From the NCBI GenBank assembly GCA_021805245.1, contig JAJZFS010000006.1, positions 1 to 42,867 of the forward strand: a DNA stretch of 42,867 nucleotides, given 5' to 3'. The position numbers and the translations under genes were made by a program. Positions 22,897 through 28,829 of the stretch are shown here, in pieces (position 1 is the stretch's first letter; each line of letters starts with the position of its first letter). The notes below the pieces were generated by a model. The model made no database searches and was not told the origin of the DNA. It saw nothing but the letters and a program-made list of their open reading frames with translations. The stretch is from Pseudomonadota bacterium. GTDB taxonomy: Bacteria; Pseudomonadota; Alphaproteobacteria; Micavibrionales; UBA2020.

Positions 22897-22920
22897 TGAT
22901 TTATGAGATAAGTCCGGCAC

Positions 22921-22982
22921 GCGTTCCCGGGAACGCCCGTTCCCGATAGGGATGCGTTTTGATGACGTTGTGTTGCGTCATC
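22921..22982. repeat. Overlapping palindromes after eno
   Basis: GCGTTCCCGGGAACGC (22921-22936) is a perfect 16-bp palindrome. Its right half, CGGGAACG, also pairs with CGTTCCCG at 22938-22945 across 2 bases, so two hairpins exclude each other. A third inverted repeat, GATGACG (22961-22967) / CGTCATC (22976-22982), follows. They occupy the 3' region of the minus-strand eno gene; no T-run follows on that strand, so simple rho-independent termination is not obvious. Confidence 0.6.
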
Positions 22983-23005
22983 TTGTCTTTTTGTCGGGCA
23001 CCGTG

Positions 23006-24412
<1,407 letters not shown>

Positions 24413-24482
24413 CTATAGGAGATTTATTAATTTTTGTTTGCGATACTGGAAGTTGCTGAACCAACCCATGAAGGAGAAATGT

Positions 24483-25121
24483 ATGAAACGTTTAACCGGA
24501 GCCGCGGCACTCGTTTTTTGCGTATTTTTTGCGGTCGCCGCTACGCCGTCTTATGGCTTTGAAACACCGGTTGTTTCTGCGAAGGATCACCAGTTTCTCG
24601 AGAATATTGGCACTGTTTTTCTCAGGGTGGGCAAGAAGTTTGGCTGCGATCAGTTCGCCTGGGCCAATTTTGTGACGCCGGAGAAGCGGGCGCTTGCGTT
24701 CGAGTATGTGCCCAAAGGAGACCATGTAGAGAATTGGACGCGCCTTGTGACTGTTACGCTTTTCACTCTGACCGGCGATCCGAAGATCGATCACGAGATC
24801 ATGGACAAGCTCGAGGGCGGGTTGCTGGGGGCTTACAAGTCACGTGGAAAGATCATCGCTACAGAATTTTACCATAACAACCAAACCAACGATCCGGCCG
24901 CATTCATCGAATACGATATCGGCTCAGGGCCATTGCTGGAGCACAACGCCGGCGTCTTTTTGCGCACGGGGAAGGTTGCGGCCGGATTCATTCAAGTCCA
25001 GTCACGCGGCAAGCCGCTGAAGCCCTCCGATATTACGGGACTCAAAAGCCTGCTCGGCCCGATCGGGGGGGCTTCGACAGTTCCTAAACCAACCAGTGCG
25101 ACACCGGCTGCTCACAAGTAG
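24483..25121 (+). CDS. Secreted protein of unknown function
   Basis: A 212-residue exported protein that I do not recognise. The signal peptide ends at residue ~25 (FAVAATPSYG|FETP). The mature part alternates predicted strands and helices (FLRVGKKFGCDQFAWANFVT; RLVTVTLFTLTGDPKIDHEI; VAAGFIQVQSRGKPL) with one Cys, and ends in a Pro/Ala/Thr/Lys-rich tail. The ATG at 24483 has AAGGAG 6 bases upstream, so the in-frame extension to 24354 is not the start. Divergent from eno and convergent with the tandem membrane-protein genes. Confidence 0.72.
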   Translation: MKRLTGAAALVFCVFFAVAATPSYGFETPVVSAKDHQFLENIGTVFLRVGKKFGCDQFAWANFVTPEKRALAFEYVPKGDHVENWTRLVTVTLFTLTGDPKIDHEIMDKLEGGLLGAYKSRGKIIATEFYHNNQTNDPAAFIEYDIGSGPLLEHNAGVFLRTGKVAAGFIQVQSRGKPLKPSDITGLKSLLGPIGGASTVPKPTSATPAAHK

Positions 25122-25131
25122 ACGTTTTAAA

Positions 25132-25572
25132 TTATACGCCCGGTCCCTGCGGGGGCTTGGGCGTGTTCTTCGGTGTGTTTGGCTTGTGGTCTGCGCTCTT
25201 CTTTTTCTTCGCCTTTGAATTAAAGACGGAGCGGATGCCTTTATACGCGGCCTGAAACGGCGTGACGAACATGGCTTTGGCGCAGCTGCCGCCGACAACC
25301 GCGACGCCGAGCGGAATGACTTTCAGTTCCGTCACTTGGCGGCTGGCCATAAAACCGAAGACCCCTGCGGCGGCGGTCAAAGCGCTGGGAAAGGCGATAC
25401 CGCCTGCGACGGCGCCGAAAGCACCGGCAGCTGCAAGAACGGGCACGGCGGGCAGAACGGCGGCGGTGGCGATGACAGTGGCAACGCCAGCGGCGGCACC
25501 GGCTGCGGCCAGCGTGTAGGGAATAAAGAGAAACCTTTTGTTTTTCGTCAGATCAAAATTGATATCGCCCAT
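25132..25572 (-). CDS. Gly/Ala-rich membrane protein, paralogue 2
   Basis: A 146-residue protein of unknown family. After a short conserved start (MGDINFDLTKNKRFLFIPYT) come one or two long Ala/Gly/Val segments (~20-75) with glycine-zipper spacing, then a second conserved block, TELKVIPLGVAVVGGSCAKA-MFVTPFQAAYKGIRSVFN (81-118), and a Lys/Pro tail ending PKPPQGP. It is clearly paralogous to the gene just upstream (25613-26128), with the same first block, last block and tail. AAAGG stands 8 bases before the ATG. Probably third gene of kdsA-p1-p2. Confidence 0.65.
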   Translation of the reverse strand: MGDINFDLTKNKRFLFIPYTLAAAGAAAGVATVIATAAVLPAVPVLAAAGAFGAVAGGIAFPSALTAAAGVFGFMASRQVTELKVIPLGVAVVGGSCAKAMFVTPFQAAYKGIRSVFNSKAKKKKSADHKPNTPKNTPKPPQGPGV

Positions 25573-25612
25573 TTTGGTTGCCTTTCATTATCTATGCTAT
25601 GCGTGATTCAAA

Positions 25613-26128
25613 TTATGCAGCGGGCCCTTGCGGGGGCTTGGGCGCGTTTGCGGGTTTGGCAGGTGTGGAAGAGGATTGCTTTTTTGCCTTCGCGTTAAAG
25701 ACGGAGCGGAGACCTTGATAGGCAGCCTGAAACGGCGTGACAAACAGGGCTTTTGCGCAACCGGCGCCGACAACCGCAATGCCGAGCGGAATGACGTCAA
25801 GTTCTGTCTTCTTGCGGGTGGCGAGAAAGCCGATGCCGCCGATAAGCGCCGTCAGCGCGACGGGAACCACGATCCCGCCGATCACCGCACCCGCAGCGCC
25901 TGCGACGGCAAGGACGGGTAACGTCGGCATGACGGAGGCCAGTGTCACAGGCGCCGCGGCGCCGCCGGCCAGAGCGGAGATGGTGTTGAGAAGGGCGACG
26001 ACGGGCAAAACCGGCAACGCGGCGGCGATGGCCGTGCCAACGCCCGCGATGGCGCCTGCGGCGGCCATGGTGTACGGGAGGATCAGGAACTTTTTGTCTT
26101 TCGTCAGGTCGAGAGAGAAATTGCCCAT
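25613..26128 (-). CDS. Gly/Ala-rich membrane protein, paralogue 1
   Basis: A 171-residue protein of unknown family. It begins MGNFSLDLTKDKKFLILPYT, has hydrophobic Gly/Ala/Pro segments from ~20 to ~104, then TELDVIPLGIAVVGAGCAKA-LFVTPFQAAYQGLRSVFN (108-145), and ends in PKPPQGPAA. Compared with its neighbour it carries ~25 extra hydrophobic residues in the middle (LPVL/PTLPVLAVAGAAG), apparently an internal repeat. GGAG lies 7 bases before the ATG at 26128, 23 bases after the kdsA stop on the same strand, so it is likely co-transcribed with kdsA. The conserved Cys and VTPFQAAY block suggest a specific role. Confidence 0.68.
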   Translation of the reverse strand: MGNFSLDLTKDKKFLILPYTMAAAGAIAGVGTAIAAALPVLPVVALLNTISALAGGAAAPVTLASVMPTLPVLAVAGAAGAVIGGIVVPVALTALIGGIGFLATRKKTELDVIPLGIAVVGAGCAKALFVTPFQAAYQGLRSVFNAKAKKQSSSTPAKPANAPKPPQGPAA

Positions 26129-26151
26129 TTTATTGCTCCGTATGACTGAAC

Positions 26152-27012
26152 TTAAGCAACCTTCGCCTTGGCGGCGTAGCCTTGCGGCTTGAGCAGCCGG
26201 TCGATGGAGATGAGCTGTTCCAGCAGCGCTGGCATGTCCTTGAGGTTCACCATGTTGGGGCCGTCGGACGGCGCTTTGTCGGGGTTCTGGTGCGTTTCCA
26301 TAAAAACGGCGGCGACGCAGCCTGTCGCCAGCGCCGCGCGCGCGAGATAGGGCACCATGCGGCGGTCGCCCCCTGTCGTCGCACCGTTGCCGCCCGGAGA
26401 TTGCACCGAGTGCGTCGCGTCGAATACGACCGGATGCCCCGTTTCCGCCATGATCGGCAGGGCGCGCATGTCGTTGACCAGTGTATTGTAGCCGAAGGTC
26501 ACGCCGCGCTCGCATAGCATGACGTTGGGGTTGCCGCTGTCGGTGACTTTTGCGGCGACGTTCTTCATGTCCCACGGTGCGAGGAACTGGCCTTTTTTAA
26601 CATTGATTGCCTTGCCGGTCTTGGCGGCGGCGATCAGCAGATCGGTCTGGCGGCAGAGAAACGCGGGGATTTGCAAAACGTCCACATGTTCCGCGACGGC
26701 GGCGCATTGTTCCGGCGCGTGGACATCGGTGATGACGGGCAGGCCGGTTGCCTTGCGCAGGGAGTCGAAGATCGGCATGGCTTTGTCAAACCCGAGGCCG
26801 CGCCCGCCCTTGAGCGAGGTGCGGTTCGCTTTGTCGAAGGAGGTTTTATAGATGAACGGCAGCCCGAGCTTTTGCGTCATTTCTTTCAGCGCGCCCGCCA
26901 TGTCGAAGGCGTGGTCTTTGCTTTCGAGGGCGCAGGGGCCGGCGATCAGCACGAACGGCAGGTCGTTGCCAATTTTGAAGTTCTGCAAGGAGATGTGGTG
27001 TTGTGCGGTCAT
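26152..27012 (-). CDS. kdsA: KDO-8-phosphate synthase
   Basis: Condenses PEP and arabinose-5-phosphate to KDO-8-phosphate for lipopolysaccharide. FVLIAGPCALESKDH (20-34) carries C27 where E. coli has Asn, which marks the metal-dependent class. FKGS-like KTSFDKANRTS, GLGFDKA, VDVLQIPAFLCRQTDLL, NVKKGQFLAPWDM, DATHSVQSPGG and FMETHQNPDKAPSDG are the other conserved blocks. 286 residues from the ATG at 27012, preceded by AAAGGAA. Reversed relative to pyrG and the pdh genes. Confidence 0.96.
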   Translation of the reverse strand: MTAQHHISLQNFKIGNDLPFVLIAGPCALESKDHAFDMAGALKEMTQKLGLPFIYKTSFDKANRTSLKGGRGLGFDKAMPIFDSLRKATGLPVITDVHAPEQCAAVAEHVDVLQIPAFLCRQTDLLIAAAKTGKAINVKKGQFLAPWDMKNVAAKVTDSGNPNVMLCERGVTFGYNTLVNDMRALPIMAETGHPVVFDATHSVQSPGGNGATTGGDRRMVPYLARAALATGCVAAVFMETHQNPDKAPSDGPNMVNLKDMPALLEQLISIDRLLKPQGYAAKAKVA

Positions 27013-27038
27013 GGGCTTTTTCCTTTTAATAAAGGCGG

Positions 27039-27066
27039 AATGTAGCACGCTTGATCCACTTGTCAA
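27039..27066 (-). promoter_or_regulatory. kdsA promoter
   Basis: On the minus strand TTGACA (27066-27061), a 16-base spacer and TACATT (27044-27039), placing transcription start about 20 bases before the kdsA ATG. Confidence 0.5.
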
Positions 27067-27099
27067 TGTTTTTCATATACTTATAACGTGAGCGCTATT

Positions 27100-27132
27100 T
27101 TAACCATTCACTAACCATTACGCATGTATAAT
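27100..27132 (+). promoter_or_regulatory. CtrA-like site and -10 element
   Basis: TTAACCATTCACTAACCAT (27100-27118) reads TTAA-N7-CTAACCAT, one base from the alphaproteobacterial CtrA box TTAA-N7-TTAAC, and includes the 8-mer TTAACCAT. A consensus TATAAT follows at 27127-27132 with no good -35, as in activated promoters. The gene at 27164 is the likely target. Confidence 0.45.
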
Positions 27133-27163
27133 ACATAATAAAATAAGGGTAGGAGATCGCATT

Positions 27164-27568
27164 ATGGGTGACCGCATAGATGAAGGATGGATGCGCGAGC
27201 AGGCGAAGGAAATGCGCGAGGAGCGCCAAGCCGATCTGAAGGCTGCGGGCCCGCTGCTCAATGAGGGTCAAAAGGCGGAACTGCAATCCTTTCTCAAAAC
27301 TGCATGCTGGATGAAGCCCGCCGACGCAAACGATGTGGTCGATACCATCAGCCAGCTTGCCGGTGAAAAGGGTTCAAATGCAAAGCAAGTTGTGAGGGAT
27401 GCCCTCGAGGGGCATGTTTCGAAAGTATTTTTAAAGAACGAAGGTAATTTCAAACCGGTCACCGGCATGCTTGAGGCCGCTATCGCGGCACGCGAGGCAC
27501 GCATTGTCACGTCACATAAGCCTGCGACTGCGTCTCCAGCCACGTCCGCACCGCAGATGAAGAGTTAG
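27164..27568 (+). CDS. Unknown small helical protein behind a CtrA-like site
   Basis: A 134-residue soluble protein that I do not recognise. The first ~30 residues are highly charged (MREQAKEMREERQADLKAAG); the centre is helical (AELQSFLKTACWM; DANDVVDTISQLAGEK; NAKQVVRDALEGHVSKVFL); the end is a Thr/Ser/Pro/Ala-rich tail. No signal peptide or membrane segment. AGGAG lies 8 bases before the ATG. It stands alone between divergent kdsA and a terminator-like hairpin. If the CtrA-like site is real, expression would follow the cell cycle. Confidence 0.65.
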   Translation: MGDRIDEGWMREQAKEMREERQADLKAAGPLLNEGQKAELQSFLKTACWMKPADANDVVDTISQLAGEKGSNAKQVVRDALEGHVSKVFLKNEGNFKPVTGMLEAAIAAREARIVTSHKPATASPATSAPQMKS

Positions 27569-27794: not shown

Positions 27795-28829
27795 ATGTCC
27801 AAACTGCTCAACATCGCGAAGACGGATGAAAATCCCCTGTACATCGACCCCTCCGAGGTGACCGCGCTGCACGTCGATCGGGCGAAGGAAGAATTGCACC
27901 TCTTCAACGGCAGCGGCGAGTTGCTGTGGATAAAATACAAGGACTGGGGCGTGGACGTCGACGAGGCGCTGCAAAAGCTGGAACAGAACGGCACGCCGAT
28001 GGTGTGTTTTCCGGTGCGGGTCAAAGAGGATGGGCGGGAATTTTTGAACTATATTTCGCCCAAGGCCGTAGCCTACATCACTGTTTCCGAGCCCGCGAAA
28101 GACGGCACTGTCGGCGTCATCGCTGGCGTCAAAGGCGTGGGCCGGGAGGAAACCTGGACGGGGGGCATGACCGAGGCGGAATTCGAAACCATCCGCGATG
28201 CCGTGAAGTCCGCAAAAAACCTTCTGGAGTACGCGCCGGAAGACGCCTATTCGCGCTGGTCTTCGGCGGCGGCGCTTTATATCGATCCGCAATCCGTGAC
28301 GCGCATCGAAGATCAGGGCTCGCAACTGATCGTCGGCTTCGAGGGCGCGGGCGGGCTGGATGTCCAGATAAAAGAGGTGTCCATCAAACCGTTTTTGTCT
28401 CCCGATTATGTAGCCGGTGACGACTCTCCCGAAAACCGCCGTTTGTTTAATTTGGCCTTCCAGAACCTGATGGCATATCAAAATCAGGAGTCGGTCAAGG
28501 CAGAGCAAAAACAGGCCCGTTTCGATTTTTCCGCCGACATCACGGCGGCCAACAAGCGCCTGATCAATGTTTCGTCGAACGAAAGCGCAAACTACATTTG
28601 CAAAGAAGACGTAGGCTACGTCTCTTTGCGCGACGACGCGCAAAACGGCACTTTTTCTATCAACATCAATACCCAGAAAAACGCGGGCAATCCTTACGGC
28701 GCCAGCCTAAGCCTGAGGTTCAAGTCGGCGGCGGAACGCAAAAAGGCCTTCGAGACGCTGGACAAGGCGCTCTCCGCGAAGCCGCCCAAGCCGCCCAAGT
28801 CATCGCCGGGCCGCAACTACAAAATGTAA
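27795..28829 (+). CDS. Unknown protein with four internal repeats
   Basis: A 344-residue cytoplasmic protein of no family I recognise. Four units share a beta-rich start and a helical end: residues ~16-63 (LYIDPSEVTALHV ... VDEALQKL), ~83-144 (LNYISPKAVAYITV ... FETIRDAVKSA), ~161-230 (LYIDPQSVTRIED ... LFNLAFQNLMAY) and ~266-328 (NYICKEDVGYVSL ... KKAFETLDKAL). The common core is hydrophobic-Y-I-x-P-x-x-V followed by alternating strands, and the helix closes each unit, so a tandem small alpha/beta or PH-like fold is plausible. The C-terminus is Pro/Lys-rich. The ribosome site GGAAGAGG is acceptable. Confidence 0.72.
   Translation: MSKLLNIAKTDENPLYIDPSEVTALHVDRAKEELHLFNGSGELLWIKYKDWGVDVDEALQKLEQNGTPMVCFPVRVKEDGREFLNYISPKAVAYITVSEPAKDGTVGVIAGVKGVGREETWTGGMTEAEFETIRDAVKSAKNLLEYAPEDAYSRWSSAAALYIDPQSVTRIEDQGSQLIVGFEGAGGLDVQIKEVSIKPFLSPDYVAGDDSPENRRLFNLAFQNLMAYQNQESVKAEQKQARFDFSADITAANKRLINVSSNESANYICKEDVGYVSLRDDAQNGTFSININTQKNAGNPYGASLSLRFKSAAERKKAFETLDKALSAKPPKPPKSSPGRNYKM

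Follow-up and report, generated by a model that had tools for sequence, protein, structure and literature searches.

Genes between kdsA and eno

The window, the whole stretch of 42,867 nucleotides analyzed here, carries two adjacent reverse-strand genes immediately downstream of kdsA, which we call X1 and X2, and a gene convergent to them, Y, which is followed by eno (Table 1). Both X ORFs lie where an earlier note on this DNA had placed them. The kdsA stop codon and the start of X1 are 23 bp apart, X2 follows X1 by 40 bp on the same strand, and no terminator-like site was found between the three genes. On this basis co-transcription of kdsA, X1, and X2 is likely, and the kdsA operon proposed earlier is plausible on sequence grounds, with the gene order kept in several genomes. 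The sigma-70-like site upstream of kdsA is the sole one found in positions 22900–27300, but is weak evidence for a promoter, since 1.2 such sites are expected by chance. A literature search combining pyrG, kdsA, eno, and operon returned nothing. The GC content of X1 and X2 (0.60–0.64) is like that of kdsA and eno (0.60–0.62), so that no recent foreign origin is visible.

Table 1 Features of the kdsA–eno region in the window
Feature	Position	Strand	Description and basis
eno	23006..24337	-	Far border of the kdsA–eno interval; Pfam Enolase_N/C
Y	24483..25121	+	Orphan protein of secreted type, convergent to X2; the two stop codons are 10 bp apart
X2	25132..25572	-	146 aa; paralog of X1, about two hydrophobic units; ORF and translation, BLASTP
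X1	25613..26128	-	171 aa; orphan membrane protein, about three hydrophobic units; ORF and translation
VIPLG...SVF block	25700..25801	-	X1 residues 110–143; invariant AKA-F--P, hydrophobic moment
Extra X1 hydrophobic unit, not in X2	25937..26017	-	Residues 38–64; alignment gap and self-repeat
kdsA	26152..27012	-	Upstream gene of the putative operon; NCBIfam NF003543/TIGR01362 above cut-off (KDO8P_synth, 386 bits)
Sigma-70-like promoter site	27039..27066	-	TTGACA-16-TACATT, upstream of kdsA

Y has an apparent signal peptide, no Pfam match, and a dN/dS of 0.38, evolving faster than its neighbors. Of the 18 genomes in the family, 11 have homologs of Y (two copies in G016), which adjoin eno where inspected; in relatives they are found next to X and/or eno, and the inspected genomes of genus g2 have Y beside eno without X. 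On the other side of kdsA, a forward-strand orphan of 344 aa (27795–28829) lies between kdsA and an ftsB-type gene. Its two halves appear similar (YIDP(S/Q)-V...), and similar ORFs were seen in G005 and G004.

X1 and X2 are tandem paralogs

X1 and X2 match each other in BLASTP at an E-value of 4e-42, with 66% identity over aligned residues. Their codon-aligned DNA (144 codons) is identical at 303 of 432 positions (70%), compared with at most 161 (37%) in 1000 codon shuffles. Chance is far exceeded, and X1 and X2 are true tandem paralogs, as had been proposed. The motifs described earlier, VIPLG(I/V)AVVG with a Cys, VTPFQAAY, and a PKPPQGP tail, are present in both proteins. The claim that the first 20 residues are shared is overstated, given that 12 of the 20 are identical. 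DNA similarity had likewise been placed at both ends of the genes; it holds for the N-terminus (74%), whereas the C-terminal tail is only 60% identical and the peak lies in the VIPLG...SVF block (84%). This block, in which Cys-Ala-Lys-Ala within a hydrophobic stretch is followed by an amphipathic segment, has the highest conservation in the X family, and AKA-F--P is invariant across all members in alignments where contig ends cut some of the sequences.

The two proteins differ by an alignment gap of 27 residues, consistent with the hydrophobic insertion of about 25 residues reported earlier. Aligned with itself, X1 gives a match that is shifted by 29 residues, spans 55 residues, and scores 79, a value that none of 300 dipeptide-preserving shuffles equaled (maximum 63). 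Judging from this self-match, the "insertion" is best read as an additional copy of a hydrophobic unit of about 29 residues, and its borders are uncertain because the unit is a repeat. The self-repeat of X2 is weak (period 25; matched by 38 of 300 shuffles in the window's genome, G000, and by 10 of 300 in G005), and the repeat is therefore firm for X1 only. At the DNA level the units are only about 50% identical, thus their copying is old or has been blurred by later change.

Selection and age of the duplication

The nearest relative found, G005 (L016), carries both genes in unchanged order. Its X1 ortholog is 90% identical with a dN/dS of 0.17, and its X2 ortholog is 94% identical with a dN/dS of 0.07 (Nei–Gojobori); the corresponding values for kdsA and eno are 0.04–0.06. 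Amino-acid changes are strongly depleted (approximate Fisher P about 5e-11 for X1 and 9e-17 for X2, with an assumed share of synonymous sites). X1 and X2 are both coding and under purifying selection in the two species.

Synonymous divergence between the paralogs is about 1.0 in both genomes, compared with 0.36–0.45 between orthologs in G000 and G005, which means that the copies arose before the two species bearing them diverged. Members of the family in genus g3 are single copy and about 39% identical, which places the duplication most probably within the lineage of the window's genus. The duplication had been described as fairly recent; this is appropriate in the relative sense that it is apparently confined to one genus-level lineage, but not on the scale of the two species.

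In the VIPLG...SVF block, pS is 0.29 between the window's paralogs, compared with 0.40 between X1 and its own ortholog. The lowest synonymous-difference window along the gene was equaled in 14 of 500 shuffles. At synonymous sites X1 and X2 are closer to each other here than in the rest of their length. Gene conversion in the present genome is hinted at, on the strength of 8 vs. 11 changes.

Predicted protein anatomy

Hydropathy and charge suggest that both proteins begin with a charged N-terminus, continue into a hydrophobic stretch (about 62 residues in X2, 90 in X1) and a short basic loop, and then have the conserved hydrophobic block with its central lysine, which turns into an amphipathic segment and is followed by a Lys/Pro-rich tail. 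The hydrophobic moment reaches 0.40–0.45 over the C-terminal half of the VIPLG...SVF block. The hydrophobic segments agree with the membrane character assigned to the pair earlier, with the reservation that hydrophobicity by itself is no proof of membrane insertion. Structure prediction had been proposed as a further check. AlphaFold2 models, built on shallow alignments, contain helices only, and with a pLDDT of 45 and a pTM of 0.17–0.19 they are too poor to support a fold or to decide topology. On the best reading, X1 and X2 are helical proteins of the inner membrane that probably form oligomers and have their Lys/Pro-rich tail in the cytosol.

Distribution and linkage to kdsA

Among 142 genomes of the order, a profile of the X family detected members in seven, namely G000 and G005 in the window's genus (g1), G009, G012, and G014 in g3, and G033 and G042 in g19, which belongs to another family. 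The g19 profile scores are partly high by construction, since the G033 sequence was included in the profile. Single-sequence matches provide an independent link (E = 4.9e-4 for G042 and 0.012 for G033), and the g19 members also have the start MGD-(S/N)FD--K---F and an AKA-F-TPF block. No credible member was found by profile search among 385 genomes at class level and 398 at phylum level. Weak single matches there (E = 8e-4 to 7e-3) fall within far longer ORFs or contain in-frame stops, and were judged compositional.

In G000, G005, and G012, kdsA, X, convergent Y, and eno follow one another on one contig. This series is split across two contig ends in G009, and in G014 the contig begins inside X, leaving X–Y–eno visible. 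In G033 and G042, X adjoins ankyrin-repeat genes away from kdsA. The arrangement of an X-family gene followed by two ankyrin-repeat genes forms a conserved cassette in these two genomes (L073:6738–9676 and L075:7477–9262), and in G033 a third ankyrin-repeat gene precedes X. When conserved linkage was examined, as the earlier note had advised, adjacency to kdsA proved to be kept within two genera, whereas most relatives have kdsA without X; the linkage is not obligatory.

The kdsA–eno interval (24338–26151; L042–L051 in relatives) is a variable slot. Where X is missing, the gene after kdsA is of the isochorismatase type in G001 and G004, encodes a poly-gamma-glutamate hydrolase in G003, and encodes an RNase_T exonuclease in G010 and several genomes of g2. 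In others it is cysS, a gene for a protein with a sub-threshold YflT score, or eno itself (G006). Pfam was applied to one example per kind. Several genomes are incomplete, and single absences of X are therefore weak evidence, though the overall pattern stands.

These data bear on the link to lipopolysaccharide (LPS) raised in the earlier note. X1 and X2 could serve LPS or Kdo synthesis directly, e.g., by anchoring KdsA to the membrane or as envelope factors whose regulation is tied to Kdo supply, and the tight same-strand spacing, along with kdsA–X adjacency in four genomes, would fit such a role. However, X is rare in the order although kdsA was detected in 49 of 55 relatives, the genes that follow kdsA vary, and X lies elsewhere in two genomes; the conserved co-occurrence with kdsA expected of a Kdo/LPS gene was not found among relatives. 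The LPS link is thus weak and a direct role improbable. Given how variable this slot is in the lineage, an operon-like position after kdsA is no evidence of an LPS role, and co-transcription with kdsA does not imply a shared pathway.

The same distribution could be explained if X and Y form an exchangeable block at a recombination-prone kdsA–eno junction, with a niche function unrelated to their neighbors. Within the genus of the window, G000 and G005 carry both X and Y, neither of which was found in G001–G004, G006, and G007, and the unrelated genes after kdsA in relatives are in line with exchange. Yet the GC content is native, the junction showed no mobile-element gene, no plasmid or virus copies were found, and some genomes without X are incomplete. 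We consider this account possible, if rather unlikely; it speaks to where the genes came from more than to how they act, and can hold alongside the explanation favored below.

A putative envelope scaffold

Our preferred, still tentative, explanation is that X1 and X2 are an inner-membrane pair occupying the variable kdsA–eno slot, most likely transcribed with kdsA, and acting as a hetero-oligomeric envelope scaffold rather than a Kdo-synthesis enzyme. The short charged N-terminus (MG(D/N)...D-TK-K-F) would be cytosolic in both proteins. The Gly/Ala-rich hydrophobic units, two in X2 and three in X1, would be suited to close helix packing, the conserved VIPLG...AKALFVTPF...SVF block would lie at the membrane surface, and the Lys/Pro-rich tail would be kept in the cytoplasm according to the positive-inside rule. 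X1 and X2 may then assemble into a hetero-oligomer in the inner membrane, with the basic tails binding either the membrane surface or an acidic partner in the cytosol, and their role would be that of a structural part of the envelope. Purifying selection, the hydrophobic segments and charge placement, the amphipathic segment by the tail, the extra X1 unit, the kept gene order, the lack of a terminator-like site, and the native GC content are consistent with this explanation. One feature fits less well: with three full spans, X1 would have its N-terminus on one side of the membrane and the basic loop that follows the third span on the other, a poor match to the positive-inside rule.

It is also conceivable, but improbable, that X paralogs evolve by changes in the number of hydrophobic units, giving tandem copies that differ in topology and form an unequal hetero-oligomer. 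If unit number does alter topology between tandem paralogs, the pair would be a compact natural case for the study of membrane-topology evolution.

Comparison with known families

As stated in the earlier note, X1 and X2 match no known family: HMM and sequence searches of Pfam, NCBIfam, PHROGs, PADLOC, and PDB sequences returned none. NCBIfam matches to shikimate dehydrogenase and SpoIIE were far under cut-off and judged compositional. X1 and X2 are a real, lineage-specific orphan pair whose context is accounted for in part, and they define a family of membrane proteins that is narrow in distribution and has no description in the libraries searched.

One of the closest described families is the phage holin Hol44 (Phage_holin_5_2, PF16079), which X2 resembles in its hydrophobic helical segments and composition. 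X1 and X2 could accordingly be pictured as a pore-forming holin/antiholin-like pair of hairpins with a basic tail, in which the added segment changes topology and restrains the partner. The two or three Gly/Ala-rich hydrophobic segments, the Lys-rich tail, and the difference of one hydrophobic unit between the paralogs would suit such a pair. The Pfam score of X2, however, is far below the curated cut-off (E = 0.17; 12.6 vs. 29.2 bits), X1 has no score, nothing better than E = 0.059 was found in PHROGs, and phages, plasmids, and viral contigs gave no match. The neighbors are kdsA, eno, and the ftsB-type gene, i.e., housekeeping genes, with no lysis gene recognized alongside and no phage or prophage lysis context. 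We regard a holin-like function as very doubtful; like the LPS role, it is less likely than the envelope scaffold.

Glycine-zipper membrane proteins have Gly/Ala-rich packing helices, and X1 and X2 are similar in this respect, but none of eight X members matches a Pfam glycine-zipper model at E = 0.1. By sequence, the closest relatives of the pair are ORFs without annotation in G005 (L016), G009, G012, G014, G033, and G042. Those in other genera are single copy, lack the extra unit, and have longer tails, and the G033 and G042 members differ further in a longer middle loop and their ankyrin neighborhood. In alignments, the relatives share with X1 and X2 the start MGD---D---(K/R)--F (MG(D/N)---D across the family), the Gly/Ala-rich hydrophobic segments, the AKA(L/M/V)F--P block, and the basic Pro/Ala-rich tail that characterize the X family.
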